Source of the DNA: a virus
Length of the DNA stretch: 36,157 nt
Reading direction: 5' to 3' (one strand)
IMG/VR virus record: IMGVR_UViG_3300030060_006262
Span: 1 to 36,157 of that record
This document shows positions 5,001-36,157 of the stretch, piece after piece. Both the position numbers and the translations under genes were made by a program. Below the pieces are notes generated by a model. The model made no database searches. It was not told where the DNA came from and saw nothing but the letters and a program-made list of their open reading frames with translations. Numbering within the stretch: position 1 is the first letter of the stretch; each line of letters starts with the position of its first letter.

Positions 5001-8000
5001 TCCAGCAGCTACGTCAGGTCTTGCATTATCTCCAACTTTATGATTTGGTCTCTGAACTCTTACATAACCTATTTGTGGATCATCTTGAACTGTTGTTAAT
5101 TCTATCCTTGCATTCTCAAAGATAGTAAATGATCCTGATACCATCTCAATTTCAATCAATTTGGGTACAATATCAGGTGCTTGACTATCAAGGAAATGTG
5201 AATGTTTTGTCGTTGGTTTTAATCCATTTGCAGAGAAGAAAACATTTCTTGAACGCATGAATGGATCTACTTCACTACCAACTTTAACACTCTCAACATA
5301 ATCAAACTCTCTTGATGGTCCGTCAAGTACATTTGTAAAACTAACTTCTTGTGTTTGAGTGGTTGTAACAGTATTTTGTCGTAATTGTAAAGTATGATTA
5401 CCTGAAAACTCATGTTGATCAGCAGCTATTGGAATATCAAAACTACTTGTTTCAGTCTCTGTAGTTGTATTAGTTGAAACTACATTTGCCTGTTCAACCC
5501 ATGTTGCACCAGATGATTCTTGTCTAAAGTTATCAACATATACAGTTCTAGTCCAATTATCAGAAGGTGGATCTAAAACAACAGCACCAGCGAAAGTGGT
5601 CACAGCAAATGGATTAACATTTACTTTAATAGATGCATTAGGTTGATCTAACCAATCAACTTCGGTATAATTTAATGTTATTAGATCGCCAGTTTTTTTG
5701 CAATTAGGATCCAATAATTGTAAATTAGAGTTCAAATCTGCTGCAGCAGGATCAATATCTGGATTTAATGCTATCTCTGCCCTTAATGACCAGAAATCAA
5801 CTGCACTTACTAATTCACCATCTAATACATTAACGTCACACTGTGAACCTGTTTCTCTACTGAAATCAATAAAGTCACGGTTAAGGAAATTGTTTACTAC
5901 AAATCCACTCTTAAATCTATTAATTCCATCTTTATCTTTAACCTGTATTGTTTTAGTATCTAACTCTAAAGCACTTAATGAAGTTACTAACTCTAGATTT
6001 TCAATTCTTTTTTCAAGAGCACCGATGTCCCTCATAGTAAATCTTCGATTATCAAACATTCTTATGCTTGGTTGTTTGATAACATCATAAAGATATGGAG
6101 GTAATGTAATCTGTGCTATTTTCATTGAAGCACCCACTTCAGTTGGTGGAGCAGGATTTTCTGCTGATTCTCCTCTTACTAATTTTACTTGCTCAAATTG
6201 ATCAATAACTAATGTATCAATTCTAGGTAAGTAAAAACTATATCCTACAGTTGAACTCTCATTTGGTGTAATTACAAATGGATTAGTATCCTCAAATTCT
6301 CTATTATGGAATGAAAATGGTGATCCATTTGTTGTTAAGTCAAACTCTTTGACTCTTGGTCTAAAATCTAATAAATCTGTAACTCTAATACCAGATATTG
6401 ATGGAATATCTTTTTCATATCTATCTGTTGAATAAGAATTAATACTACAAATATCACCCTTATTACCTGTAGGAACTTGATATTTATCAAATACAATTAA
6501 TAATTTCTTTGAGGGAACAGCAGATTTCGCTTTTCTTTCGATTCTTGAGTAATCTAGGTATTGATGATTATGTCCTTTGTTTAATACATAATTTCTTGTT
6601 CTGTCAATATAGTTACCGTTTGTTACTACTTGTGTTACAGAAGTTATCGATGACTCTGTAAATTTAACTTGCTCACCTGTTTCAAATTTATTTGAGTTTA
6701 GATAAACAAAACTAACCGTATTCGATGTTGTTTCAACAATTTGAGCAACAGCACGAGAATCATTACCAATAATTCTTTCACCAATTACTGCATTTACATC
6801 CAAATTAAGTCCAGATACGAATGTTAATTTATCAAATACAGGTTTAGAAGTAGTTTTAGATTCAAGAACCGCAACAACTTTACTTACATCAGGGACGTTA
6901 AGTGAAATTTCATGATCTTCAACTCTTGTACCATATCCAAGATTGTTAGTTAGTCCTGAATCGGTAGTTAATCCTCCATTTGTCGATATACCAACACTCC
7001 TTGTTACTTCAAGTTGTTGACTTCTTACGTAATCTTTTGATTTACTTGTAACACCAACTTTCTTAAGAGTTACATTTACTGTGCATGGTACATTTTGTGA
7101 TAATCCACTAAATTTAATAACATTTCCATCTGCTGACCTTGTAAATTGATCAGATGTAAGGGTTTCTGTGGTATCAGTTGCATCATTATAATGAATACTA
7201 TATTTTTCAGCATCAAATGGTTCAAAGAATGCACTTGTAATTCCTGTCGCTGTATCTAATGCATCTTTAGTTGTTAAGGTTAATGTACCAGTAGTTGGAG
7301 TTTTACCAGTAACTTGGGTACTTACAATTAATTCAGAATTAGCAGAATTAAGTGTTGCAATATTTTTTCGTGGTAAAGTAGAGTATAAACTTGAATTAAA
7401 TAGATTTCTTATTGATGCCTCTTTAACTCTAAACACACCAGAAGTTGATCCAGCTCCGATAATATCACCTTCACATACACCAGCAACATCTTCTACCTCA
7501 ACAAAAGTAATTTGCGATCCGTCACCAACGTCAGTAACTCTATTAAATACAGGATCTGTAAAATTACCAGCAGCGTAAGAAATAATCGCATCAGTAGTGA
7601 TACCAGATACACCACCAAAATTACGTCCAGGTATTGTACCCGTGTTAGTTGAACCTGTGCCCTTTAGAACATTTAATTGATCTGACGTAGAGAAATTAGG
7701 GAGAATACGATCAATTAAAACACTATCAGCTGAAAAATCTGTGACTAGTGTTCCTGATAAAGCATCAGAATCTTGGAATACAGATTTGATATCTCTAGTA
7801 GTATAAGCATTAATTTTTAATATGGAGGCATTAATATTTGTATTCTGCTCATTAACAATTATAGTTTCTCCCTCGACAAATTGTCCTGTTGTTTGTGATA
7901 ATGATATTTCATCAGCTCCACTTGCACCAACTGCTTGAGCAGTGTAACCAATAGCACCACTTGCAAGACCTCTAACTTTTGTTCCTATTGGTGCTGAAGG

Positions 8001-11075: not shown

Positions 11076-14000
11076 TCATGTTAAATCTGCTCTGTAAGAT
11101 CCAGATGATCTATGACCTCTTTCACCTATGTTATCATAACTCTTACGTTGAATTGTAGGGAATGTAGATAATCCAGTGACACTAAAATTATTCAATGTCT
11201 TACCAGTCACTGTTAGTGATATTGGATTTGATGAACGGACTAAATCTGTACCATACAATACACCCCAATTGAATTTACCTAATATTTCTGACTCACCAAC
11301 AACATTTATACCATTGAATGATCCCGTTGTACCAACACCAACACCAATCGCAGCTGATGAAGTGCTATTACTGTGTATATGGCATGTGATTACACCTTTT
11401 GATCCACTGGGTGTTATTGATTTAACAATATAGATATTATCTAAAAATTGAGTTCCAATTCCAATCACATTATTATTACTTGAATCAACTGAAGTTACTG
11501 CGTTACCAACTTTTGTGCCAGAAACTAATATCGGATATCCAACTTGTAACTCACTAGCAGTTGCATTAGTTAATTCACCATTTGGATCTTCTTTTATAGC
11601 ATGGTAGAAGAATTTAATTGCACCACCAGAAACACTACCTCTATTTGTGGTTGATATTCCAGTTATGATACCAGTATATCCTTGTGCATTCTGTATTCTA
11701 GTAATTTTCTCATAATTAAAGTTTGGTTCCTCTATAAGAACATGTGGTGGATTGGTGAATGTATAACCTAAACCAGGATTTACTACATCAATATCAGATA
11801 CCTGACCATTTGTAATTGTTACTGTTGCAGTTGCAGTAGTTCCTACACCTACAAATTTTTCAACACCTGATGGAGCTGCAATACCAATATCAACAGTTCC
11901 AGAGTATCCTGAACCACCATTTGTTATAACAAAATCTTTAATTGTTCCAGCAACGGATACTATTGCTGTTGCAGAAGCACCAACATTTATATCTCCCGAT
12001 GTAATTAACGCATCAACTTCAGTAACAGTTATTCCTGAATAATTACTCTCCTTGAAGAATGAGTTTGCATCATCAACAAATATACCATCAGCAGCACCAC
12101 CTTTACCATCAGTTGTTGATAGATTACCAATTATCTTTGATGTTGCATATACTTGAGGTTCAAGTATTGATCTAGACTTGTCAATTAATGTTCCATTAAG
12201 ACGTAAATCACGTTTTTGTTTTGTCCATGTTAAAGGTCTTAACGATCCTGTGCTTATACCAGGTCCTGTATAGATATCAGTTTCAACTAAATCAGTGTTT
12301 AAGATATCTTTGACAACTCTTGCTCTATCTTGTGAATCAGTATTATTGTCATTGACAATTGGTAATCCTGCAAGTTTATAATTTTTATTAATCTTCAATG
12401 TGTCGCCAATTTTTACTGTTGGATTAACATCTGCATCAATAGTATCTACACCAGCTGTACCTCTATAGAAGAATATATCAACATCATCGTTATCGTTAAG
12501 TCCTGGTTGTGATTCACCACGGGGTGGTTCTGTGAAGATAAATGTTGATCCACCCTCAAATTGATATGATTCTTTTGGTTTTTGTAATACACCATTTACA
12601 AAGATCAATAGAACAGCATCTAAATCAATTGCTTGAGATTGAGAATTTGTTAAATCTTTCTCAAAACTGAGCAACTCTCCATTAAAGAATAGTGGGAATC
12701 TTCTTCTATTACCGTCCTGTAGTATTTTAATACTATCAATATAGTCTATTTCCCCAAATTGCCATGCTGAAAATCTATCATTAAAGATTTCAAGAACTTC
12801 TAATTCAAATTCTTGTATTGGTTCAGATAAATGAGCATCAGTTACTAGACCTACTGGTTTGAATTTGTCACCTTTCTTAAATGAATGTCCATTTCTAGCA
12901 ATATTAAATGTTTTTATCTCAAATAATGTTGAACCAATACCAACTGATGTTGATGATGCACTCACTGCAACATTAAGTAGTAAATTTGATCCTGTATCAG
13001 TGGTAGTTCCAATACCTATTCGACTAGTACCAACAATCTCAAGATTCTCATAAGATGGTTCAGGTACATTAATTTGTGGATTAATATAACCACTACCAGC
13101 AGAATTAATACTAAAGATTAGTGTACCACCAACACCAACCGTTGCAGTAACATCAGCACCTGTTCCACCACCTCCACCAGCACCTACATCGACTGTAATT
13201 GAATTATCTGTCTTAGATGTAATAGTCAAGAATACACCTGCTGCAGGGTCTGTGGCACGAGGATAAGGGTGATCACTGAAGTTACCATCCTTATTACACT
13301 TAAAGAATAGTGAATTAGTAGCGATTCTTATCTTATTACTGGTAGTAAGACCGTGATTAGGTATAATAAGTGTTAAATCACCTGTATGTGATTCATATAT
13401 TGCATCAGTAGGTGTAAATGGACCTAGTGCTCCACCTTGAACTTCTATTGAGTTTGGATTTGATCTTACAAACTTATGTAAGAAGTTAATATCAGTTACA
13501 CCTATGGCAACTGTTGAACCACGATATCCAGAACCAAATGTTAAATCGTCAAAGAATTCTATCGCATTACCACCACGTTGATAAATGTGAGGTATTGTGC
13601 AAATACCAGCATCAACCTCAAATGTTCTTTCAGATACAATACCAACTAAGAATAATGGTCTTTCATGATCTTGGAATATCGTAGTGGTTACACCCGCATG
13701 TTGTGAAGCACAACTAAATTCTAAGTCTTTTAGATGCACTGAATTTGGTCTACCAAGTGCAAATCCATGTACTTTCTCTGTTGTTACAGTTATAATTCCT
13801 GTTAAATGATCATAGGCAGCAGTTTCTATACCTATATTAACTCCTGATGTTGTACCAACACCAGCAATACTTATGATTCCACCAGCAGGGTTTGTAAATG
13901 GTTGAACTCTCGCACCAACCAATGGGGCATATCCTAGACCTGGTGTAGATCCAAGAGATACGATCAATCCACCTCTAGGAACTTGGTTTTGGTTAATATC

Positions 14001-28768: not shown

Positions 28769-29661
28769 TAAATGATTCGTGTTTTCTCATGACCAACTCG
28801 AATGCGAGGGTCACACCATATTTCAAATCCTGCCTCTTTTGCATCAAGACAGAAAGAAACGTCCTCACCGCACATATCTTGAACCTGTCCTGATTCAAAT
28901 ACCTGCATCTTTGGAGCAAACCAAGGATAAGTCATTTCTTGATGCTCAAAGACTCCATTCTTAATGAGTAACCATCCAAAACCTGTATAATCAACAGTGA
29001 AAGGTTTCTTTCTCTTTGAGATACTTTCAATCGTTTCGTGATTCATGACTCCACCATTCGTTCTGAAATCATCTTCATCTAACCAGTGAGCTACGGACGT
29101 TGTTCTTCCATCTTCGGTGCAGTACCAACCTGCAACAATTGAACGTTCCTTTGATGTATCGATTTTCAGATTCATACCGACAATCTTTGTTGCATCACTT
29201 CCATCCTTATTCTTAACAACTTCTCCTTTCTCATCCTTCATCACATCAGTTACAGGTTCTTTTGTAACTGCATCTGCTGGAATTGCATTCAATACTAACT
29301 GATAGAACTTCTCTGTGTTGAATACAATATCTGAGTCAATCCAGAGTTGATAATCATATTTGAGTTTTCCATCCCAAGGTAATTGATCAGGTCCTCTTAA
29401 TACATTTGCTCCAAGACATTTGCATCTGGCAAAGTTTACCATTGATGAATAATCCTGTGATATCTGAATTGCTGCTCCTGCCTGTACTAAATCAAAAGAG
29501 AGTGATACAAAACTCTTTAGAAAATTATAAGATACTCCTCGACCAGGTAAACAAAAAACAAATGTTTTTCCTCTAACTAACTGTCTTGCTAAAGTATAAT
29601 CCCACTCTGGGGGTTTTTCTTTAACTGGAGATTTCGCTTTTACCGTAAATCCTTTCGCCAT
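28768..29661 (-). CDS. GT-A type glycosyltransferase, 297 aa
   Basis: The protein has the layout of nucleotide-sugar transferases of the GT-A fold. A core strand GKTFVFCLPG (about 31-40) is followed by helices and then YDYQLWIDSDIVFN at about 102-115, containing the metal-binding DSD (109-111). Near 206-260 come FRTNGGVMNHETIES, VDYTGFGWLLIKNGVF and YPWFAPKMQ, and near the end GEDVSFCLDAKEAGFEIW, the acceptor/catalytic ED region typical of family 2-like enzymes. A charged insertion at about 130-170 looks like a surface loop. It probably glycosylates phage DNA, a virion protein or a host surface glycan; which one cannot be told. It heads the accessory operon. Confidence 0.85.
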   Translation of the reverse strand: MAKGFTVKAKSPVKEKPPEWDYTLARQLVRGKTFVFCLPGRGVSYNFLKSFVSLSFDLVQAGAAIQISQDYSSMVNFARCKCLGANVLRGPDQLPWDGKLKYDYQLWIDSDIVFNTEKFYQLVLNAIPADAVTKEPVTDVMKDEKGEVVKNKDGSDATKIVGMNLKIDTSKERSIVAGWYCTEDGRTTSVAHWLDEDDFRTNGGVMNHETIESISKRKKPFTVDYTGFGWLLIKNGVFEHQEMTYPWFAPKMQVFESGQVQDMCGEDVSFCLDAKEAGFEIWCDPRIRVGHEKTRII

Positions 29662-29693
29662 AATGTGTTGTAATTACATTCATATCATACTTC

Positions 29694-29701
29694 AATTTAT
29701 A
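29694..29701 (-). promoter_or_regulatory. Late-like promoter box TATAAATT
   Basis: The minus strand reads TATAAATT, one base from the late consensus TATAAATA, 32 bases before the glycosyltransferase ATG. A TATGAT closer to the gene could serve as a -10 instead. It is the only promoter candidate seen for the accessory operon. Confidence 0.4.
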
Positions 29702-29737
29702 TAGATTGTCAATGTCTATTCTTAAAGGGGGTTTTCC

Positions 29738-29917
29738 CTAATCACTGACTTCTTGTATATGAATACCACTATCATCTACGTGCCAAACTAATTCTGTATC
29801 TTCATACCAATCAAATTCATTGACCACCCATTCTGGTACCGTGATCTTAAATTCATTTGTGACTGGATCTGTATTCAATGATACTTTAGAATCTTCGTAT
29901 TTCTTCATAAGGGTCAT
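29738..29917 (-). CDS. AbrB/SpoVT-like mini-protein, about 59 aa
   Basis: The C-terminal half (FKITVPEWVVNEFDWYEDTE, then WHVDDSGIHIQE) follows the AbrB/MazE swapped-hairpin DNA-binding pattern: V/I-P-x-x-V-x-x-x-h-x-W-x-x-G/E-D-x-h-x-h-x-V-D-x-x-G-I. Such proteins bind DNA as dimers, either as transition-state regulators or as antitoxins. No toxin partner lies next to it. The ATG at 29917 is chosen; a GTG at 29926 and an ATG at 29908 are alternatives. It is the last gene of the small-gene region before the accessory operon. A regulatory role is inferred from the fold resemblance only. Confidence 0.65.
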   Translation of the reverse strand: MTLMKKYEDSKVSLNTDPVTNEFKITVPEWVVNEFDWYEDTELVWHVDDSGIHIQEVSD

Positions 29918-29948
29918 ATTTTTCACTTTTCCAGTATATAGTACTTCG

Positions 29949-30053
29949 CTACGCTCTGTCTACGACTTCCTTATTCTTTTGCGATCCTGTGTGGGCATTT
30001 TTACACACGAAAAAAATTCTGTACCCCCTGTGTAAACACTTTGCGTTTTTCAT
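29949..30053 (-). CDS. Possible 34-aa peptide
   Basis: A short frame from the ATG at 30053 encodes MKNAKCLHRGYRIFFVCKNA and a basic tail. A CCTCTCT stretch precedes the ATG, loosely like the C-rich leaders of neighbouring genes. The region also contains the inverted repeat GTGTGTAAAAATGCCCACAC, so the sequence could instead be an untranslated leader or RNA structure. The evidence for translation is weak. Confidence 0.2.
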   Translation of the reverse strand: MKNAKCLHRGYRIFFVCKNAHTGSQKNKEVVDRA

Positions 30054-30110
30054 AGAGAGGTCGATCTGGGTCGTTTATAGCTTAATGGTACCATGCGTTT
30101 TTATATACGG

Positions 30111-30157
30111 GGGGCGAACCGCCCCACACCTGCTCCTCACGCACGAACAGTGCGGGG
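30111..30157 (-). repeat. Tandem GC-rich stem-loops after a small gene
   Basis: The first stem is GGGGCG-AAC-CGCCCC (30111-30125), a perfect six-pair hairpin. The second is CGCAC-GAACA-GTGCG (about 30140-30154), flanked by CTCC/GGAG. Both lie just after the stop of the 66-residue gene in the minus direction and stand out from the AT-rich surroundings. There is no clear U-run after them, so they may be a non-canonical terminator or an mRNA 3' stabiliser. Confidence 0.5.
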
Positions 30158-30161
30158 AGGG

Positions 30162-30362
30162 TTAGAAGACCCTCTGCCCAAGTGCTGCGGGTCTGTCTCC
30201 GTACTCACCTGCATGGCGACCCCATGCGTCTAAAGTTTCAGCGTATCCGTAAAGCATGGATAGGTCTAAACAGATTTCGGTTGCTGACCAACTGTCAGTC
30301 TGTGTATCTGTTTCTTGTGCTTCGCCAAGTGTGTTGTAAGCGGTAGTTGTAAAAGTGTTCAT
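30162..30362 (-). CDS. Unknown small protein, 66 aa
   Basis: The protein begins MNTFTTTAYNTLGEAQETDT and ends GDRPAALGQRVF. It is acidic and Thr-rich in its first half, with no recognised domain. Support comes from its context: a 13-pair hairpin and TATAAT lie upstream at the same distances as for the other small genes, and strong stem-loops lie downstream. The ATG has no Shine-Dalgarno; the leader ends TTCCTCGTTATT. The function is unknown. Confidence 0.6.
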   Translation of the reverse strand: MNTFTTTAYNTLGEAQETDTQTDSWSATEICLDLSMLYGYAETLDAWGRHAGEYGDRPAALGQRVF

Positions 30363-30439
30363 AATAACGAGGAATTTAATTTATATACTTATTATAACGA
30401 AGGTTTTCAGTTCATGGGGTAAATATCCACGAACTGAAA
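30363..30439 (-). promoter_or_regulatory. Hairpin/-10 module before the 66-aa gene
   Basis: A 13-pair stem (30405-30417 with 30427-30439, one pair being G-U in minus-strand RNA) is followed after eight bases by TATAAT (30391-30396). The start codon lies 28 bases further on. The stem may also end transcription of the 85-residue gene upstream. Confidence 0.65.
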
Positions 30440-30451
30440 CAAAGCGTTACA

Positions 30452-30709
30452 TTATGCGTAACGACCTGCGGGGTGTGGGTTGGAAGGGGTACAACCGAAA
30501 GAAGCAAAGAAACTGTCTAATGCGTCAAGGTCTAATTCTGGGTTTGGTAGAAATCCGCATCCGTAGAGGTCAACCCCTCCAATATGGTCTACTCCCCATT
30601 CGTTGATTTCATCGCAGAATGACTGGAAATCTTCGCAAAGATAAGCAATATCCTTAAAAGATTCTTTCTGGTTAATTCTGTTAATTAGTCTTTCTGTTAA
30701 GTTGTTCAT
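30452..30709 (-). CDS. Unknown acidic protein, 85 aa
   Basis: The protein begins MNNLTERLINRINQKESFKD and continues CEDFQSFCDEINEWGVDHIGG and LDALDSFFASFGC. It is strongly acidic and helical in its first half, with no membrane or catalytic signature. The ATG is directly preceded by TTTTCCCCTT and has no Shine-Dalgarno. It has its own hairpin/-10 module. A small acidic early phage protein of this sort could bind a host enzyme, but nothing in the sequence shows which one. Confidence 0.78.
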   Translation of the reverse strand: MNNLTERLINRINQKESFKDIAYLCEDFQSFCDEINEWGVDHIGGVDLYGCGFLPNPELDLDALDSFFASFGCTPSNPHPAGRYA

Positions 30710-30782
30710 AAGGGGAAAATAAATCTTATATCTTTATTGTATATCTGATTTAGGAATAATGCAACCCCTAAAACAGATATAC
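30710..30782 (-). promoter_or_regulatory. Long hairpin with -10 before the 85-aa gene
   Basis: A stem of 9 + 6 pairs with one mismatch (30739-30754 with 30767-30782) is the longest in the region. A TACAAT (30736-30741) overlaps its foot, with a TATAAG further on. The start codon is 26 bases after TACAAT, and CCCCTT stands directly before it. Confidence 0.6.
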
Positions 30783-30797
30783 TTAATTTCTTAATAT

Positions 30798-31217
30798 TTA
30801 AAAGTTGTTGCTGAATATATATCCGTTAATCTCTGTGTAATCATAGGATAAATTATCCCAAGTTTTCTCCCAGTCTACCTCTATCCAGTAAGGCAACTCT
30901 TGATTGATGTATCCGCAATCGCTTACCAACTGTTCCGCAAATTCTGCTCCGTTTCTCCATGATCCGTGGTAAGCGTCACTAATTCGGTCAACTGCTGACA
31001 ATTCAAATTCCTCAATAAATGAATCTACAATTTCTTTGTCCCATTCTTCAACTGCTTGCTGGTAGTCCTCAAAGTAAAGAACAAAGTCTTTATGTCCGTG
31101 TTCGTCGATGAACTCTTGCATTTCGTCTGTGTCGATTCCGTCCGCTTCTAATTCTTTGAAAAGTTCGGTTGCGTGTTCTTGGTCTGTGAAAGAGGTTGTT
31201 TCTGAATTAATGCTCAT
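30798..31217 (-). CDS. ardA: ArdA-type antirestriction protein, 139 aa
   Basis: The protein is very acidic. The C-terminal part (residues 75-139) reads AVDRISDAYHGSWRNGAEFA, then ELPYWIEVDWEKTWDNL, then DYTEINGYIFSN. This is the ArdA pattern with its A-Y-x-G-x-(W/F)-x-x-x-x-x-FA helix, the IDWE-x-x helix and the DY-x-x-I-x-G-x-x-F ending. ArdA proteins mimic bent DNA and block type I restriction enzymes. The ATG at 31217 is chosen because a longer frame up to 31352 would overlap the preceding gene, and its extra N-terminus looks non-coding. A CCCCC leader precedes the start, and a terminator-like hairpin lies upstream. It would protect incoming phage DNA early in infection. Confidence 0.8.
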   Translation of the reverse strand: MSINSETTSFTDQEHATELFKELEADGIDTDEMQEFIDEHGHKDFVLYFEDYQQAVEEWDKEIVDSFIEEFELSAVDRISDAYHGSWRNGAEFAEQLVSDCGYINQELPYWIEVDWEKTWDNLSYDYTEINGYIFSNNF

Positions 31218-31237
31218 TGATTTAAGGGGGTAAGGGT

Positions 31238-31267
31238 GAATAAAGAAAAGGTGCTTATATGCACCTT
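31238..31267 (-). terminator. Terminator-like hairpin between a 58-aa gene and ardA
   Basis: The minus strand forms AAGGTGC-ATATAA-GCACCTT (31248-31267) followed by TTCTTTATT. The stop codon of the 58-residue gene is inside the loop. With only about 20 bases left before ardA, it may act as an attenuator rather than a full stop. Confidence 0.65.
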
Positions 31268-31431
31268 GTCTCAAATAATGCTCTTGCAGATTTTTCAATC
31301 GCAAGCATGACTCCTTCATGATCTTCGATTTGACGGAACATTTCATAATCAAGTTTATTTGCGATCATGAACTGCTCTACTGCTTCGTCGTAGCAATCTT
31401 CTAAAATTGATTCGTGATGTAAAACTGACAT
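31255..31431 (-). CDS. Unknown small helical protein, 58 aa
   Basis: The ATG at 31431 gives MSVLHHESILEDCYDEAVEQ, then YEMFRQIEDHEGVMLAIEKS, ending in ETRCI. It is a predicted all-helix acidic protein. A longer reading up to 31500 would run through the hairpin/-10 module and is rejected. A leader ending CACCCCTTAAGAAA precedes the start. The last codon and stop lie in the terminator-like hairpin before ardA. The function is unknown; linkage to ardA might mean a counter-defence role, but this is inferred from position only. Confidence 0.72.
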   Translation of the reverse strand: MSVLHHESILEDCYDEAVEQFMIANKLDYEMFRQIEDHEGVMLAIEKSARALFETRCI

Positions 31432-31497
31432 TTTCTTAAGGGGTGTTTGTTTTGTATATACTAATGATAATCGGAAAGGGGGTATTTTGCAACCCCC
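31432..31497 (-). promoter_or_regulatory. Hairpin/-10 module before the 58-aa gene
   Basis: A GGGGGT/ACCCCC stem (31478-31483 with 31492-31497) is followed by TATCAT (31464-31469). The start codon is 32 bases further on, with CCCCTT in the leader. Confidence 0.55.
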
Positions 31498-31503
31498 CAA
31501 ATA

Positions 31504-31764
31504 TTAAGACTTTATTAATTTGTGATCCTTTGCGGGTCTGAATCCGTCAATCCCTAATTCTGCTAATAAACAGCGATCATATAAAGAATTACAGATTTCG
31601 GTTAATTCGTCACTACTTGCCCCCTGTGTGGGGTCGTATGTAACCCACCCGTCAGAGGGATTATCCAAGTCTCCGATTTCTACACTTTGATCAAATTTGT
31701 TGTATTTGGCGATTAGGTTAATATCACCTTTACAGTACATTGGTTGAGTCATTGAATTAAACAT
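31504..31764 (-). CDS. Unknown acidic protein, 86 aa (or 82)
   Basis: The protein begins MFNSMTQPMYCKGDINLIAK and includes VEIGDLDNPSDGWVTYDPTQ and CNSLYDRCLLAELGIDG. It has four Cys scattered without a clear metal-site spacing. Two ATGs are possible. The one at 31764 is only 16 bases after the -10 box; the one at 31752 is 28 bases away and fits the spacing of the other small genes better. The function is unknown. Confidence 0.72.
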   Translation of the reverse strand: MFNSMTQPMYCKGDINLIAKYNKFDQSVEIGDLDNPSDGWVTYDPTQGASSDELTEICNSLYDRCLLAELGIDGFRPAKDHKLIKS

Positions 31765-31808
31765 TTGAGGAACTAATATAATAATAGGGCATATTTGAGG
31801 TTATGCCC
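31765..31808 (-). promoter_or_regulatory. Hairpin/-10 module before the 86-aa gene
   Basis: A GGGCAT/ATGCCC stem (31787-31792 with 31803-31808) directly abuts TATTAT (31781-31786). The leader has CCTC rather than CCCC. The stem begins 16 bases after the stop of the 54-residue gene. Confidence 0.6.
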
Positions 31809-31824
31809 GAACCTGTAACATTAA

Positions 31825-31989
31825 TTAATGTCTGTCTGAAATATACCAACGTCCTGTTGGGTGTTCTAATGGTTGGAAGTCACGTTTTGCCATATCTGCC
31901 AATACTGCCATAAGTACTGGGTCTTTCATCGCTGACTGATTGACTAAAACTCTTCCTTCGTAGATTGGTTTAAGTTGTTTGTCGAACAT
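31825..31989 (-). CDS. Unknown small protein, 54 aa
   Basis: The frame from the ATG at 31989 begins MFDKQLKPIYEGRVLVNQSA and ends HPTGRWYISDRH. Even hydrophobic spacing and the Trp/Tyr-rich end suggest a folded mini-protein. The upstream TATAAT sits 27 bases before the ATG and the leader ends TTTCCCTATT, the same arrangement as the neighbouring small genes. The function is unknown. Confidence 0.75.
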   Translation of the reverse strand: MFDKQLKPIYEGRVLVNQSAMKDPVLMAVLADMAKRDFQPLEHPTGRWYISDRH

Positions 31990-32045
31990 AATAGGGAAAG
32001 TTGTTTAACTACTCTTATTATAGTCTCTGGAAAGAGTATATCCAG
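31990..32045 (-). promoter_or_regulatory. TATAAT promoter with weak hairpin before the 54-aa gene
   Basis: TATAAT (32017-32022) is 27 bases before the ATG. A weak five-pair stem CTGGA/TCCAG (32027-32045) precedes it by four bases. The leader carries CCC. Confidence 0.6.
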
Positions 32046-32078
32046 TATTGTTAATGGAAGTTTAATAATCTGTAACAA

Positions 32079-32225
32079 TTAGATTTGCCTCCTTCTTTTT
32101 AATTCTCTCTTGACTTCCATTAATCTTTTGGTATCCTCTTCAGTATTGAGGAATAATGAAACGGGAGAACTCAACGCTTTTTTCATGTGTGTAAGTTCCC
32201 AAGTTGAACGATTTCTCATATTCAT
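32079..32225 (-). CDS. Unknown basic protein, 48 aa
   Basis: The ATG at 32225 gives MNMRNRSTWELTHMKKALSS, ending in a very basic helix (MEVKRELKRRRQI). A good GGAGG lies eight bases before the start, and the ATG overlaps the preceding 37-residue frame by ATGA, so the two are cotranslated. The basic tail could bind nucleic acid. The function is unknown. Confidence 0.75.
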   Translation of the reverse strand: MNMRNRSTWELTHMKKALSSPVSLFLNTEEDTKRLMEVKRELKRRRQI

Positions 32226-32335
32226 TTGATTTTCCTCCGTGGGTAGGGGCATCTGGGGTTGTTGTTTTGGGTTTCTTTAAGAGATTCACTCTTAAAGACT
32301 ATTTCATAAATTTGTTGAGAAGTTAATCTTTGCAT
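32222..32335 (-). CDS. Unknown tiny protein, 37 aa
   Basis: The ATG at 32335 is preceded by AAGAGG at a suitable distance and gives MQRLTSQQIYEIVFKSESLK, ending PRRKIK. It starts eight bases after the stop of the upstream 202-residue protein and overlaps the next gene by ATGA. The three are therefore probably one transcript, read with normal Shine-Dalgarno sites. Short length and lack of a known relative limit confidence. Confidence 0.6.
   Translation of the reverse strand: MQRLTSQQIYEIVFKSESLKETQNNNPRCPYPRRKIK
32234..32238 (-). promoter_or_regulatory. Ribosome binding site GGAGG
   Basis: GGAGG lies eight bases before the ATG at 32225, inside the end of the 37-residue frame. It supports translation of the 48-residue protein. 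Confidence 0.65.
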
Positions 32336-32343
32336 TTGACCTC

Positions 32344-32952
32344 TTAATATAGGGAAAGAGTTTTGTCGAATAACTCTAAAGACTTTTTGAGTTGTTCTTC
32401 CTTAAGTTTAATATGGTCTTTGTGACTTTGCAACTTCATTTGTCGCATTGTGTTGATAATAGTATATTTGGATAAACTGTAATCTTTCTTTTGGTCGAAC
32501 TGGGAAAAGAACTGTTTTTCCTTCAACATTACTTGACCTGTACCCACGTTGTAATTTGTGTATGGTAACTGTTGATAAAGATCAAATAATGTTACATTAT
32601 TTGTTTTACCATCAATTGAAATTATATAGTAAGAGTCAATTTCACCTTTTAAGTAACGTGTTGAAAGTCTGTTAAATGCAACCATATTTGGTTGACCCTT
32701 CTTATCAAATCCAAATTTGATATTAATAAGGTCGTCATTGAATGATACGTCTTGCATCTCTCTCTTATTATCAGGTGCGGTAAAACGTCCGTCCAATTCA
32801 ACCAATTTTTCAACCAGTACCTCTTCAACCTTCTCTCCGAATGTATGACCAACTTCTTTAACTGTGGGGTCAAAGTTGATCTCTGTTAGAATGTTTGGAA
32901 GTAGTCGTTGAACTAATGCAAGTATGTAAGTTTGGTCGTTTGGTGTAATCAT
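32344..32952 (-). CDS. Unknown protein, possible restriction-nuclease fold, 202 aa
   Basis: The ATG at 32952 (MITPNDQTYILALVQRLLPN) is preferred over one 33 bases upstream because it fits the C-run leader. Residues 36-50 (HTFGEKVEEVLVEKL) form a helix with Glu40. Residues 68-95 read DVSFNDDLINIKFGFDKKGQ, PNMVAFNRL. A D-x(n)-N-x-K arrangement on adjacent strands, preceded by a Glu helix, recalls PD-(D/E)XK restriction enzymes. However, Asn77 stands where Glu or Asp is usual, so the assignment is weak. The last 40 residues are a Lys/Leu-rich helix. The next two tiny genes appear to be cotranscribed. Confidence 0.72.
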   Translation of the reverse strand: MITPNDQTYILALVQRLLPNILTEINFDPTVKEVGHTFGEKVEEVLVEKLVELDGRFTAPDNKREMQDVSFNDDLINIKFGFDKKGQPNMVAFNRLSTRYLKGEIDSYYIISIDGKTNNVTLFDLYQQLPYTNYNVGTGQVMLKEKQFFSQFDQKKDYSLSKYTIINTMRQMKLQSHKDHIKLKEEQLKKSLELFDKTLSLY

Positions 32953-33001
32953 TTGGGGTTTCTGTGTATGTATTAATGATACCAAATTACATTAATGTAA
33001 T
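32953..33001 (-). promoter_or_regulatory. Palindrome/-10 module before the 202-aa gene
   Basis: A perfect 16-base palindrome ATTACATTAATGTAAT (32986-33001) is followed after four bases by TATCAT (32976-32981). The ATG is 23 bases further on, with AAACCCCAA just before it. Confidence 0.55.
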
Positions 33002-33038
33002 CAAGTACATATTTAATTGTGTGTTGTATCATATGTAC

Positions 33039-33067
33039 TTGCACGTTTTTAGCTAATTTTCTATAAT
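33039..33067 (+). promoter_or_regulatory. Plus-strand sigma70-like promoter without a gene
   Basis: TTGCAC (33039-33044), a 17-base spacer and TATAAT (33062-33067) match a bacterial housekeeping promoter. No plus-strand gene follows. The transcript would begin near 33074 and contain a GGTG/CACC stem and a GAAATTTT/AAAATTTC stem before meeting the 3' end of the 90-residue minus-strand gene. A small or antisense RNA is possible. Confidence 0.5.
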
Positions 33068-33150
33068 AAAGGTATAAGAGGTGGAGGGTATCACCGAAGA
33101 CGAAAAAGATCGACACCCAAGCAGCGAAATTTTTTTTATAAAATTTCCAT

Positions 33151-33172
33151 AAAAAAATCCCCCGTAGGGGAT
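33151..33172 (-). terminator. Intrinsic terminator after the 90-aa gene
   Basis: The minus strand forms ATCCCC-TACG-GGGGAT (33157-33172) followed by a T-run. A second GCGG-ATAA-CCGC stem (33175-33186) lies between it and the gene's stop. This is the clearest intrinsic terminator in the window. Confidence 0.8.
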
Positions 33173-33188
33173 GGGCGGTTATCCGCAC

Positions 33189-33461
33189 CTAGTAATCTGA
33201 CCCAGTTGGGTTAAGTTCTTCGATGAGTTCTTGCATCTCTGTTAAATCCGCTTCTCCCCAGTCTGCTCCATCTGGTGTAGCGTGGGGATAAACTCCGATT
33301 TCTACCATCTCCTGTAGAAATTCTGTGTAAGTCTCACACTCTTTAGCGATACTGTAAAGACTGTAATCGTTCTGAATCCATAAGGCACAATTCCAAGTTG
33401 TCCAGTCTGCCCATCCGTTGTAGGTTTTCTTTGTGTCTGATAGGTTTAATTTAGTTTGCAT
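33189..33461 (-). CDS. NGWxxWTTWN-family phage protein, 90 aa
   Basis: The core NGWADWTTWNCALWIQNDYS (residues 15-34) is the hallmark of a widespread small phage family with the pattern NGW-x-N/D-W-x-TWNVALWI (DUF7249-like, from memory). It continues with an acidic helix (CETYTEFLQEMVEIG) and TPDGADW, also typical of the family. The biochemical function of the family is not known to me. The gene stands alone, with a cassette promoter upstream and a strong terminator downstream, so its expression is individually controlled. Confidence 0.82.
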   Translation of the reverse strand: MQTKLNLSDTKKTYNGWADWTTWNCALWIQNDYSLYSIAKECETYTEFLQEMVEIGVYPHATPDGADWGEADLTEMQELIEELNPTGSDY

Positions 33462-33539
33462 AATAGGGGTTTTTTGCTTATGTACTTATTATAATGGATA
33501 CTGGCACGAATACCAGCATCCTTAACAATCTCTTAACAA
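33462..33539 (-). promoter_or_regulatory. UUCG-hairpin promoter cassette, copy A
   Basis: In minus-strand RNA the stem GGATGCTGGTA-TTCG-TGCCAGTATCC (33496-33521) is fully paired with two G-U pairs and a UUCG loop. TATAAT (33488-33493) follows after two bases, and the ATG lies 26 bases further on with AACCCCTATT before it. The cassette is nearly identical to copy B at 34113-34183. Confidence 0.8.
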
Positions 33540-34112
33540 TTAATTTAACCAGTTGATAAAGTCATTATAAACTGATGTATCAAGTTCAAAATCATCCTGA
33601 AATAACGCATTATAAATTGGTCTTGAACCTGATCTCCTACGTTTTGGATTAACGAAAAATATCTTAACTTCTTTTCCTGTAATCTTCTTGAAAAATGCGG
33701 GATAGTATGTTAAAGCATCTTTACCGCATGCATTTTGACCCGCAAAAATTGCATATTCTACATTTTCGGGAACTTCGGGAGATTGTTCTAATTCAATAAA
33801 ATCCATTACAGCACGTTTTAAATAACATGCATCCAAATAAGTTTTAGATTCGATTGCTTTTGTCATTTTAGCATTTTTGTAAACGTGCCAATCAACTTGT
33901 AGGTTTTTAAGGCAATGTCCATTAACTTCTTCAGTTCTTTTATAATCATTCTTTTTAGCGTCTAAATTTAACGCATTACAAGTTCTTTTGATTAGATTCT
34001 CATATACAAGACCCGATCCATTCCGTGCCTTACCTCCACCAAATTCTTTATGAAGTTTTGGAAGTTCGGTTATGTCCTGATTGTATGATTCAATAATTGA
34101 TAAAGTTTTCAT
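33540..34112 (-). CDS. Probable PD-(D/E)XK nuclease, 190 aa
   Basis: A restriction-enzyme-like core is visible. Glu38 lies in a helix (GSGLVYENLIKRTC), Asp74 in a strand (LQVDWHVYK), and Glu88-Ser-Lys90 in the next strand (TKAIESKTYLDACYLKR), forming the D-x(13)-E-x-K metal site. The N-terminus carries a Gly-rich HKEFGGGKARNGSG segment and the C-terminus is basic (NPKRRRSGSRP), suiting DNA contact. No methyltransferase partner lies nearby, so it may be a lone phage nuclease acting on host or rival DNA, or one used in recombination. The specific target cannot be deduced. It is expressed from its own cassette promoter (copy B). Confidence 0.72.
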   Translation of the reverse strand: MKTLSIIESYNQDITELPKLHKEFGGGKARNGSGLVYENLIKRTCNALNLDAKKNDYKRTEEVNGHCLKNLQVDWHVYKNAKMTKAIESKTYLDACYLKRAVMDFIELEQSPEVPENVEYAIFAGQNACGKDALTYYPAFFKKITGKEVKIFFVNPKRRRSGSRPIYNALFQDDFELDTSVYNDFINWLN

Positions 34113-34183
34113 AATAGGGGTTTTTTGCTTATGTAATTATTATAAAGGATTCAGGCACGAATACCCGAATCCTTAACAATCTC
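34113..34183 (-). promoter_or_regulatory. UUCG-hairpin promoter cassette, copy B
   Basis: The stem GGATTCGGGTA-TTCG-TGCCTGAATCC (34147-34172) is followed after two bases by TATAAT (34139-34144), and the ATG is 26 bases further on. Compared with copy A, paired positions change together (G-U to U-A and U-A to G-U), so pairing is conserved in the minus-strand RNA. Confidence 0.8.
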
Positions 34184-34456
34184 TTAATACTCTGCAATCT
34201 CTCTTAAATATACATCGACTTCATGGAAGCATAACCAACCTTTAATGCTATCATCGACGATGTGCCCTGCGGGATTGACTTCTGCAAGTTCGTAGAGTCC
34301 TTCATCCCCGCCATAAGACCCAGAATGACAAGCAACAGATGCCCCCCAACCATTACGAAAGCGAAATTTTTCAACTTGCCCGCCATCCCTCTCATAAATG
34401 GCAAATGGTTTAAAAGTGTCATAGGATCTTAAATCTAATTGTTTGAATGTTGTCAT
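34184..34456 (-). CDS. Conserved phage protein of unknown function, 90 aa
   Basis: The pattern NGWGASVACHSGSYGGDEGL followed by YELAEV resembles a small conserved phage family whose members share the G-A-S-V-x-x-H-x-x-SYGG-x-x-GLxE core. The C-terminal half (KGWLCFHEVDVYLREIAEY) forms a helix. No enzymatic motif is evident. It ends just before cassette B, and its own leader has TTCCCT directly before the ATG. The function is unknown. Confidence 0.8.
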   Translation of the reverse strand: MTTFKQLDLRSYDTFKPFAIYERDGGQVEKFRFRNGWGASVACHSGSYGGDEGLYELAEVNPAGHIVDDSIKGWLCFHEVDVYLREIAEY

Positions 34457-34487
34457 AGGGAATAATTAACTAACTGAATTAATAATA
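34457..34487 (-). promoter_or_regulatory. TATTAT promoter before the 90-aa conserved gene
   Basis: TATTAT (34482-34487) lies 25 bases before the ATG with TTCCCT directly before the start. Unlike the other modules, no stem directly abuts the -10; the nearest stem is at 34519-34540. Confidence 0.5.
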
Positions 34488-34518
34488 AACGAATGAGGGA
34501 AGGTATGCAATAGGTAAT

Positions 34519-34582
34519 GTGCCAGTTCCCCATCTGGCACATTTCCAGCTGCGAGTGTGACAGTTCCCCTTCTGTCACACTC
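34519..34582. repeat. Two stem-loops with similar CCCC/GGGG loops
   Basis: GTGCCAG-TTCCCCAT-CTGGCAC (34519-34540) and GAGTGTGACAG-TTCCCCTT-CTGTCACACTC (34553-34582) are perfect stems of 7 and 11 pairs with nearly the same loop. In minus-strand RNA the loops read ATGGGGAA and AAGGGGAA, complementary to the C-runs before several start codons. No U-run follows either stem. Confidence 0.7.
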
Positions 34583-34586
34583 TGAC

Positions 34587-34617
34587 TTGACACATTGTAG
34601 AAGTTGTGTCCTATAAT
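34587..34617 (+). promoter_or_regulatory. Plus-strand promoter-like site with a dyad
   Basis: TTGACA (34587-34592), a 19-base spacer and TATAAT (34612-34617) form a plus-strand promoter with a longer spacer than ideal. The spacer holds an inverted repeat GACACA/TGTGTC that could be an operator. No convincing plus-strand gene follows; only a 22-codon frame is present near 34661. Confidence 0.4.
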
Positions 34618-34672
34618 GGGACTTACATGAGATCATAACCCTTAAGAGGTATAACTACGCAATGCCCAAATG

Positions 34673-34807
34673 TTACAATGGCATTGATATTTCTTTACCA
34701 GAGATGCCATCAAGACCAAACAACGCATAATATAATTCTGACCCGTTGTAATAGTCTTCGAGGAGCAACTTATAGCACTCCTCCGTGATTTCGTAACGTG
34801 TATCCAT
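34673..34807 (-). CDS. Unknown small acidic protein, 44 aa
   Basis: The frame from the ATG at 34807 begins MDTRYEITEECYKLLLEDYY and ends GKEISMPL. It overlaps the stop of the 46-residue gene by one base (TAATG), so both are read from one transcript. It is acidic and helical in its first half. The function is unknown. Two stem-loops lie downstream. Confidence 0.7.
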   Translation of the reverse strand: MDTRYEITEECYKLLLEDYYNGSELYYALFGLDGISGKEISMPL

Positions 34808-34947
34808 TACTTCATCACCTCATCTACTAGGTTGTCGTAAGTCTGAATGTCCCAACCTTTCTGTTCGGGGACTTCCATCTCGTATGCAAACATAACTAGG
34901 TCTTGTAGATATTCTAGTTGATTTTCTGTAAGATTGAGAGTTTTCAT
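34807..34947 (-). CDS. Unknown small acidic protein, 46 aa
   Basis: The ATG at 34947 gives MKTLNLTENQLEYLQDLVMF and ends NLVDEVMK, an acidic, mostly helical mini-protein. A longer frame up to 35016 would read through the hairpin and -10 box and is rejected. AACCCCT stands directly before the ATG. The stop overlaps the next start. The function is unknown. Confidence 0.75.
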   Translation of the reverse strand: MKTLNLTENQLEYLQDLVMFAYEMEVPEQKGWDIQTYDNLVDEVMK

Positions 34948-35005
34948 AGGGGTTCTCGATTGAATTACTTTAATTATAGAGTACTGGACGAGATGTGTCC
35001 AGTAC
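34948..35005 (-). promoter_or_regulatory. Hairpin/-10 module before the 46-aa gene
   Basis: A nine-pair stem GTACTGGAC/GTCCAGTAC (34981-35005) is followed after two bases by TATAAT (34973-34978). The ATG is 25 bases further on, with CCCCT directly before it. Confidence 0.75.
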
Positions 35006-35016
35006 ATTTGATACAT

Positions 35017-35475
35017 CTAATAGTATCCTGCCGCCTCCATTCCTGGTTCATCATAGAAACAAGTGAATGATAAGTCAGGGTATCTTTCTTTTAACTCCTG
35101 CATTACTCCTTCAGGTGGCGACCACGCAGTACTAAATTCAAGTTCTAACTGTTCGGAATCATCATAATCAATAGTAAGTTCCGATAAATCCCACTTCGTT
35201 CCCCAGTTGTTAATGCACCAGTGATACCAGCGATCATCATTTTTACCATCTGGAAAGTTGTATGTTTCCCACACAATTTCTCCGTTTGGGTTCTTCATTT
35301 GTTCAAGTTTGGGAAGTTCTCCCTTTTCGTTTGGGATATTCTTAAAATCAGGTATTGGAAGTATCTGATTAAATGGGTCTTGATGATTGTTAAAAATGTC
35401 GTAAATCTCTTTGAGTTGATTCACTTGATCTTCATCTGCATCAATTCTGATTCGGTTGTAGCACCAATTAGGCAT
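35017..35475 (-). CDS. Api92/DUF1281-like protein, 152 aa
   Basis: The start MPNWCYNRIRI with a following acidic helix, together with YHWCINNWGTKWDLSELT and STAWSPPEGVMQELKERYPD, is the signature of the DUF1281 / Api92-like family (ferredoxin-like domain) found in plasmids and phages. The family's biochemical role is not established. The ATG at 35475 is chosen because the family begins MPNWCxN and because the promoter module lies just upstream; a longer frame would cross the -10. CCCCT occurs 11 bases before the ATG. Confidence 0.82.
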   Translation of the reverse strand: MPNWCYNRIRIDADEDQVNQLKEIYDIFNNHQDPFNQILPIPDFKNIPNEKGELPKLEQMKNPNGEIVWETYNFPDGKNDDRWYHWCINNWGTKWDLSELTIDYDDSEQLELEFSTAWSPPEGVMQELKERYPDLSFTCFYDEPGMEAAGYY

Positions 35476-35534
35476 AATCTTTAGGGGTGTTGTTGTACTA
35501 ATTATAAGGCATAGGGTTGCAAAAAGCAACCCTA
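35476..35534 (-). promoter_or_regulatory. Hairpin/-10 module before the Api92-like gene
   Basis: A nine-pair stem TAGGGTTGC-TTTTT-GCAACCCTA (35512-35534) is followed after five bases by TATAAT (35501-35506). The ATG is 25 bases further on, with ACACCCCT in the leader. Confidence 0.75.
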
Positions 35535-35545
35535 CGAATATTAAA

Positions 35546-35758
35546 TTAACGTAAAGAATAACCTACCACCTCATCACCAAACATTTCTGACGCATCAACA
35601 TCAATACGTCCATCAGTCATTAGACTGTCAATGTAACAATCTTCTTCAATTTCACGAAGTTCATCATACTGTGTGGGTAGGTCTTCATCTTCGGGAATAC
35701 CATAACCAATTTTTAACTCATCTTGTAAAAGAAGTTCGTTGTACTCTTCAATAGTCAT
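35546..35758 (-). CDS. Unknown acidic protein, 70 aa
   Basis: The ATG at 35758 gives MTIEEYNELLLQDELKIGYG, continuing DLPTQYDELREIEEDCYIDS and ending in VVGYSLR. It is strongly acidic and could be a protein-binding or DNA-mimic type early protein, but no family is recognised. A longer frame up to 35794 would include the -10 region. CACCCCT lies directly before the chosen ATG. Confidence 0.75.
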   Translation of the reverse strand: MTIEEYNELLLQDELKIGYGIPEDEDLPTQYDELREIEEDCYIDSLMTDGRIDVDASEMFGDEVVGYSLR

Positions 35759-35810
35759 AGGGGTGTTTGTGTAACTGTTTATAATATAACCCACTTTTGG
35801 TCAGAGTGGG
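35759..35810 (-). promoter_or_regulatory. Hairpin/-10 module before the 70-aa gene
   Basis: A CCCACT/AGTGGG stem (35790-35810) is followed by TATATTAT, giving TATATT (35783-35788) or TATTAT (35781-35786). The ATG is 22-24 bases further on, with CCCCT before it. Confidence 0.6.
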
Positions 35811-35826
35811 GGAACTGTGTGCAACT

Positions 35827-36006
35827 TTACGAACTGGCACATTGCCAGCTGATTTTGTTTTCTGAATCTGCTATATCAAAACAGATCTCACACATTGCGT
35901 CAACCTGCGGGAAGTTATCCCGCCAATCATAATCTTCCTCTAATGGAGCGTCCCAGTAGTAGTAAAGTGATGAATCGGTTATCCCGCAGTTGTCGCAAGT
36001 TGTCAT
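35827..36006 (-). CDS. Small CxxC protein, zinc-ribbon-like, 59 aa
   Basis: The frame from the ATG at 36006 begins MTTCDNCGITDSSLYYYWDA and carries CDNC near the N-terminus and CEIC (residues 39-42). These two CxxC knuckles could bind one zinc ion. It ends ISWQCASS, over a CTGGCA-CAT-TGCCAG stem. The start overlaps the stop of the upstream gene by ATGA. The function is unknown; zinc binding is inferred from the Cys spacing. Confidence 0.78.
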   Translation of the reverse strand: MTTCDNCGITDSSLYYYWDAPLEEDYDWRDNFPQVDAMCEICFDIADSENKISWQCASS

Positions 36007-36157
36007 TTAACCTTCACTCCGTCAACGAATGGAACTGTCTTACCATCACGGGCATGAAACCACTGGTAGTTTTTCTGAAAGATACCACCTAATCCAAATT
36101 CAGACATTAACGCATTAAGTCTTGATTTTGTGGTCACGGTCTCCCACCCGCAAGAAC
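36003..36157 (-). CDS. Unknown protein, C-terminal part only
   Basis: An open minus-strand frame enters from the right edge and ends with TGA at 36003. The visible 50 residues read SCGWETVTTKSRLNALMSEF, then GIFQKNYQWFHARDGKTVPF and a short end. The upstream part is outside the window, so start and length are unknown. The ATGA junction with the zinc-ribbon-like gene supports it as a real coding end. No function can be assigned. Confidence 0.65.
   Translation of the reverse strand, partial: SCGWETVTTKSRLNALMSEFGLGGIFQKNYQWFHARDGKTVPFVDGVKVK

Follow-up and report, generated by a model that had tools for sequence, protein, structure and literature searches.

PeSL-like stem-loop and promoter modules in an accessory-gene region of a T4-like cyanophage: probable terminator-promoter cassettes

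A promoter-linked stem-loop array and its closest precedent

PeSL (promoter-early stem-loop) cassettes were reportedly described by Arbiol in 2010 and Comeau in 2014 in the T4-type phages RB49/phi1, T4/PST and KVP40/nt-1. A PeSL consists of a sigma70-type promoter fused to a stem-loop and occupies the gaps between small accessory genes in hyperplastic regions, where near-identical copies precede unrelated genes; recombination takes place inside the cassette, the stem-loop is an effective terminator, and expression is early. Here we describe a comparable array in the viral record IMGVR_UViG_3300030060_006262, a fragment of 36,157 bases that was analysed whole (the window) and whose nearest annotated relatives are the T4-like cyanomyoviruses P-SSM2, S-SKS1 and S-SRM01. 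The region from 30.2 to 36 kb adjoins gp6/gp25 and carries ~16 small minus-strand genes, mostly without assigned function. We consider it probable that the gaps between these genes are composite terminator-promoter cassettes of PeSL-like type, in a hyperplastic accessory-gene region.

An earlier, sequence-only reading had proposed that at least eleven minus-strand gaps share one design, in which a stem-loop or palindrome is followed within a few bases by a TATAAT-like -10 box and then by a short leader. Stems were scored under a single strand-neutral rule (score >=8.5), and the real gaps were compared with 200 dinucleotide shuffles of those same gaps. Between 30.3 and 35.8 kb, 9 of 13 minus-strand gaps contained a strong stem directly before the -10 box, whereas the shuffles averaged 0.2 such gaps and never had more than 2. 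All nine stems that had been proposed as clear were found in place or within a few bases, and the spacing was as described: stem end and -10-like hexamer are -2 to 8 nt apart, and the hexamer lies 16-32 nt before the ATG. The two marked as weak, at 32986-33001 and 32027-32045, scored 7.0 and 6.5; neither is convincing or above chance when taken alone (Table 1).

The layout recurs in related phages. In a comparison set made up of the window and 81 related loci gathered by protein similarity, TATAAT boxes lying 12-45 nt before an open reading frame (ORF) were treated as promoter-like, and the minimum free energy (MFE) of folding was calculated for the 30 nt ending at each box. Mean MFE was -5.99 kcal/mol at 253 non-redundant promoter-like sites versus -2.43 at 550 other TATAAT sites; values below -6 kcal/mol occurred at 37% and 7% of sites, and stem scores >=10 at 25% and 2%, respectively. 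The excess of folding is centred directly upstream of the box and is lost within 14 nt on the upstream and 10 nt on the downstream side, with a smaller second peak ~26 nt upstream of the box. The stem-before--10 layout is thus well above chance, and the design is common to the relatives and not a local accident.

When the modules are set beside PeSLs, a sigma70-like promoter with an adjacent or overlapping stem-loop is common to both, and the RB49 layout is alike (e.g. TTGAC-GGGGATCGCGAGATCCCC-TATACT): RB49 DNA contains stems between the -35 and -10 boxes, stems abutting the -10 and boxes inside loops. The setting in a T4-type myovirus is also shared, the cyanophage modules clustering by the gp25/gp6 accessory genes, as are recurrent homologous cassettes with modular shuffling. 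Because layout, location and shuffling all agree, we call the modules PeSL-like, leaving terminator activity and early timing aside. There are also differences. In the RB49 examples a clear TTGAC -35 directly precedes the hairpin, or the -10 sits in the loop, whereas most cyanophage modules are without a clear -35; the sequences are dissimilar, and the density of the modules is much higher than in the other phages scanned; and many cassettes of the relatives carry an upstream 24-bp inverted repeat that was not found in the RB49 stretch. Under the same stem rule, promoter gaps with a stem numbered 9/13 in the window, 4/13 in S-SKS1, 3/15 in S-PM2, 2/6 in S-SRM01, 0/11 in P-TIM68 and 5/20 in RB49. 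A 236-kb relative has its modules grouped in the matching accessory region, with few in the rest of the sequence.

According to the summary given in PMC4503421, PeSLs mediate gene shuffling between T4-like phages; S-PM2 is described there as lacking the high PeSL density seen elsewhere, and the stem that we find before the S-PM2 gene at 11,428 is the one noted at 11369-11391 in that paper. In a passage of PMC5780444 that cites others, T4-like cyanophages are reported to be without T4 middle promoters and motA/asiA. The kind of element is known. The sequence-only reading had overlooked this precedent, the presence of -35 elements within several hairpins and the signs of recombination at the cassettes. 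Judged by the available literature, what is new is the density, the occurrence in cyanophages, the resolved breakpoints and the inverted repeat fixed upstream.

Hairpins as RNA, and the promoters that overlap them

Stem mismatches on the sense strand were strongly asymmetric, with a G.U:A.C ratio of 72:21 at promoters compared to 15:22 at other TATAAT sites and 60:71 in shuffled promoters (binomial p ~1e-9), the stem finder having weighted G.T and A.C mismatches equally; strict redundancy removal gave 41:15 at promoters versus 37:35. Tolerance of G.U but not of A.C on the transcribed strand argues that the stems act as RNA and not as DNA operators. Since the hairpin lies upstream of the predicted transcription start, it falls outside the downstream mRNA and must be a 3' part of the preceding message. 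Judged by their pairing and position, the stems are RNA elements at the end of the upstream transcript.

One hairpin family gives further support to pairing. The g30362 hairpin (GTGGATATTTACCYCAC core) has homologues in 8 other phage contigs, before non-homologous genes. In three sequences one G-C pair has become A-U, and U-G intermediates occur at the pairs beside it; 97% of the alignment cells are paired, a share that drops to 30-56% once the partner is shifted by 1-3 columns.

The sequence-only reading had left two explanations side by side, a fused terminator-promoter and a dyad operator; the former gains from these data and the latter, as an account of the stems, does not. A DNA dyad to which a phage or host regulator binds in the -35 region would suit the fixed place of the stem beside the -10, the perfect palindrome at 32986-33001 and the near-perfect inverted repeats formed by some stems. 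However, a G.U bias confined to the sense strand is unexpected of a DNA dyad, and TTCG loops and compensatory exchanges also speak against one; stem sequences differ, so that there is no common recognition sequence for an operator. The better candidate for a regulator site is the inverted repeat found separately upstream, in which the two half-sites vary independently of each other. We hold an operator function of the stems to be very unlikely and reject it on the 72:21 wobble asymmetry and the diversity of stem sequences.

Promoters of N4 type, in which a conserved DNA hairpin is read by a virion RNA polymerase, would likewise place a hairpin directly beside the start region. Here, by contrast, the stem stands upstream of an ordinary -10, several modules have a -35 at a 17-bp spacing, the wobble is that of RNA and not DNA pairing, and the stem sequence is not conserved. 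An extruded stem read by a phage RNA polymerase is accordingly extremely unlikely, and was rejected on the RNA-type wobble, the diverse stems and the sigma70-type boxes, no search for a polymerase gene having been made.

The promoters themselves have the parts expected of the sigma70 type. In the relatives, TTGA/TTGC hexamers show a sharp maximum at a 17-bp spacer, whether or not a hairpin is present. Four window modules carry a -35 at exactly this distance and inside the hairpin, as TTGCNN in g30709, g31431 and g35475 or TGGACA in g34947; the earlier view that the stem displaces any normal -35 is therefore only partly right, holding for most modules and failing for these four. A conserved AAGTAYA follows the box and places a pyrimidine-A step 6-7 nt past it, at the expected start position. 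Leaders often contain CCCCT or CCCC no more than ~12 nt from the ATG, with no Shine-Dalgarno sequence (starts 35758, 35475, 34947, 34112, 33461, 31431, 30709 and 32952), and in the leaders of some relatives (L061) GGAG is followed by ACCCCTATG.

On the terminator side, the modules show a partial likeness to intrinsic terminators, with an RNA hairpin soon after the stop codon and a U-tract where there is room: if the stem ends 7-15 nt before the box, the next 8 nt contain 4.8-5.3 T, and >=5 T in 14 of 22 cases. They differ in the abutting cassettes, where the -10 sequence replaces the U-tract. We read the two forms as one continuum, in which a terminator followed by a promoter appears to grade into a fully overlapped arrangement.

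We propose that RNA polymerase leaving the upstream gene transcribes the hairpin as RNA, and that the U/A-rich stretch after it, either a U-tract or TTATAATA itself, would end or pause the upstream transcript. The same DNA would serve as the next promoter, through a host-sigma70-type -10 and, in a minority, a -35 in the 5' arm or loop. Transcription would start ~7 nt after the -10, at an A of the consensus AAGTAYA; with its start downstream of the hairpin, the next mRNA would therefore be free of it and have a leader of roughly 20 nt. Each small gene would thus be separately transcribed and form an interchangeable unit. Homologous recombination within the cassettes, for which the sequences argue, would shuffle genes between phages, and in many cassettes of the relatives a fixed upstream inverted repeat would add what is probably a regulator site.

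Several observations weigh against this scheme, chiefly against its terminator. Termination at the stems is deduced from sequence features. Stems abutting the -10 have poor U-tracts (~3.2 T in 8), the -10 sequence standing in their place, and so may pause RNA polymerase or protect 3' ends instead of terminating efficiently. Formal covariation in the g30362 hairpin family is modest, with one pair changed on both sides, because the family comprises just eight sequences. The 8 divergent gene pairs provide 16 promoters, two with weak stems, which are too few for a terminator-absence control. An alternative, which we regard as unlikely yet worth weighing, is that the hairpins protect the 3' end of the upstream message or serve in its processing, with little termination, and stand beside the promoter through compact packing. 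Sense-strand RNA character combined with weak U-tracts in the abutting stems would fit such a role; the U-tracts of stems with room before the box do not, and the sharp position beside the -10 and the shared cassettes point to one joint unit.

Recombination within the cassettes

Stem sequences had been described as unrelated, and most do differ, but the g30362 stem has the homologues given above and the g33461 and g34112 modules are copies of one cassette, with 90% identity over 61 nt. Identity between these two is ~80% in the 90 nt before the ATG, falling to 28% further upstream and 42% after it, and the proteins are unrelated; a direct query of IMG/VR with this cassette returned no exact match. 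In other phages, the g30362 hairpin family precedes at least two unrelated kinds of gene, a 66-aa or 58-aa gene and a 190-aa homologue of g34112. Across all modules, similar cassettes stood before dissimilar proteins in 119 of 18,306 hairpin pairs versus 65 of 145,337 non-hairpin pairs.

A breakpoint could be placed within one module. The sequence between g31764 and g31431 is mosaic. In its upstream half, as far as the 5' arm and TTGCA, it agrees with the g31764/g30709 gap of contig L003; in its downstream half, from the -10 onward, it agrees with another gap of that contig, g34456/g31431. Gene order also differs between the window, L003 and two longer relatives, which have the same genes. Upstream regions of g34112 and g35475 orthologues are heterogeneous at first look, which we read as probable cassette exchange. 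Together, the sequence comparisons indicate that related viruses swap genes by recombining inside the cassettes.

Shuffling of the PeSL type, documented in T4-type phages of other hosts, is hereby extended to cyanophages, and the resolution, down to single genes, allows a direct reading of the recombination points. Such cassettes would explain how ORFan genes can be swapped with correct start and stop kept.

Repeats upstream of the promoters, and neighbouring features

Of 442 non-redundant promoter-like TATAAT sites, 100 have a 24-bp inverted repeat, TGTGMCASTT-N4-AASTGKCACA, whose end lies 29+/-1 bp before the -10. With the threshold set strictly, all six control offsets were empty at the promoter sites, and the repeat was present at 26 of 1,522 other TATAAT sites. 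Its half-sites vary independently, as expected of a protein site and not of a hairpin; where a hairpin co-occurs, it fills the 29-bp interval. Window copies precede g35758 and g34456. Copies are concentrated in accessory regions, both in the relatives and in S-SKS1, S-PM2 and S-SRM01; the P-TIM68 and RB49 stretches examined had none. Viral contigs commonly carry it (at least 120 stretches), whereas bacterial genomes rarely combine it with a -10 at that distance (12 stretches). The repeat by itself was likewise rare in the cyanobacterial genomes sampled, with 4 of 149 from one order, an order to which the true marine hosts may not belong.

The inverted repeat looks like a regulator binding site. 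More tentatively, and with the odds somewhat against it, the repeat might bind an undescribed phage or host regulator and so define an accessory-region promoter class in T4-like cyanophages, with stem-loop, promoter and site forming one recombining cassette. The fixed upstream repeat gives a handle on promoter classes in these phages. A further copy at 34556-34579 is followed on the plus strand by TTGACA and TATAAT (34612-34617), and the stretch 34556-34617 could be an antisense promoter directed against the otherwise minus-strand genes.

At ten -10 boxes, those of g33461 and g34112 among them, a weaker direct repeat, TTAAG-N6-TTAAG (11-bp period), ends 27 bp ahead of the box. This putative pho box is loosely similar to those of cyanophages (P-SSM2 pstS; S-PM2, PMC10976474) and just loosely fits the PyTTAAPyPyT/A consensus; sequence-predicted pho boxes in cyanophages are unreliable (PMC10976474).

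Table 1. Positions of stem-loop modules and repeats in the window
Feature	Position	Strand	Details
g30362 module stem-loop	30405..30439	-	TTTCAGTTCGTGG/atatttacc/CCATGAACTGAAA; -10 TATAAT 30391-30396; ATG 30362
g30709 module stem-loop	30740..30781	-	-35 TTGCAT in loop, 17 bp before -10 TACAAT 30736-30741
g31431 module stem-loop	31478..31497	-	-35 TTGCAA 17 bp before -10 TATCAT 31464-31469; contains recombination breakpoint
g31764 module stem-loop	31787..31808	-	-10 TATTAT 31781-31786
g31989 weak stem	32027..32045	-	before TATAAT 32017-32022; score 6.5, chance level alone
g32952 palindrome/weak stem	32980..33007	-	before TATCAT 32976-32981; score 7.0; TACATTAATGTA retained in relative L057
g33461 module stem-loop, TTCG loop	33496..33521	-	-10 TATAAT 33488-33493; cassette copy of g34112 module
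g34112 module stem-loop, TTCG loop	34145..34174	-	-10 TATAAT 34139-34144
g34947 module stem-loop	34981..35005	-	-35 TGGACA 17 bp before -10 TATAAT 34973-34978
g35475 module stem-loop	35510..35536	-	-35 TTGCTT 17 bp before -10 TATAAT 35501-35506
g35758 module stem-loop	35790..35810	-	-10 TATATT 35783-35788
Inverted repeat TGTGCCAGTTCGTAAAGTTGCACA	35818..35841	-	29 bp before g35758 -10
Inverted repeat TGTGCCAGATGGGGAACTGGCACA	34518..34541	-	30 bp before g34456 TATTAT 34482-34487; -35 TTGCAT 34505-34510 between; no hairpin at -10
Inverted-repeat copy TGTGACAG..CTGTCACA	34556..34579	not assigned	+ strand TATAAT then at 34612-34617
Direct repeat TTAAG-N6-TTAAG	33521..33536	-	ends 27 bp before g33461 -10; likewise 34172-34187 before g34112

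An Rfam search of 29600-36157 gave no family at its gathering score, and a tRNA gene search found none. Among the neighbouring genes, g31217 (30798-31217, minus strand) matches the PHROG family phrog_36653, an anti-restriction protein (E=5e-31). The non-coding minus-strand stretch at 30060-30130, on the border to the structural genes, contains a hairpin, CCCCCGTATATAAAA and GGTACCAT, and recurs in relatives L128 (near reverse-complement position 6789) and L141 (near 6606).

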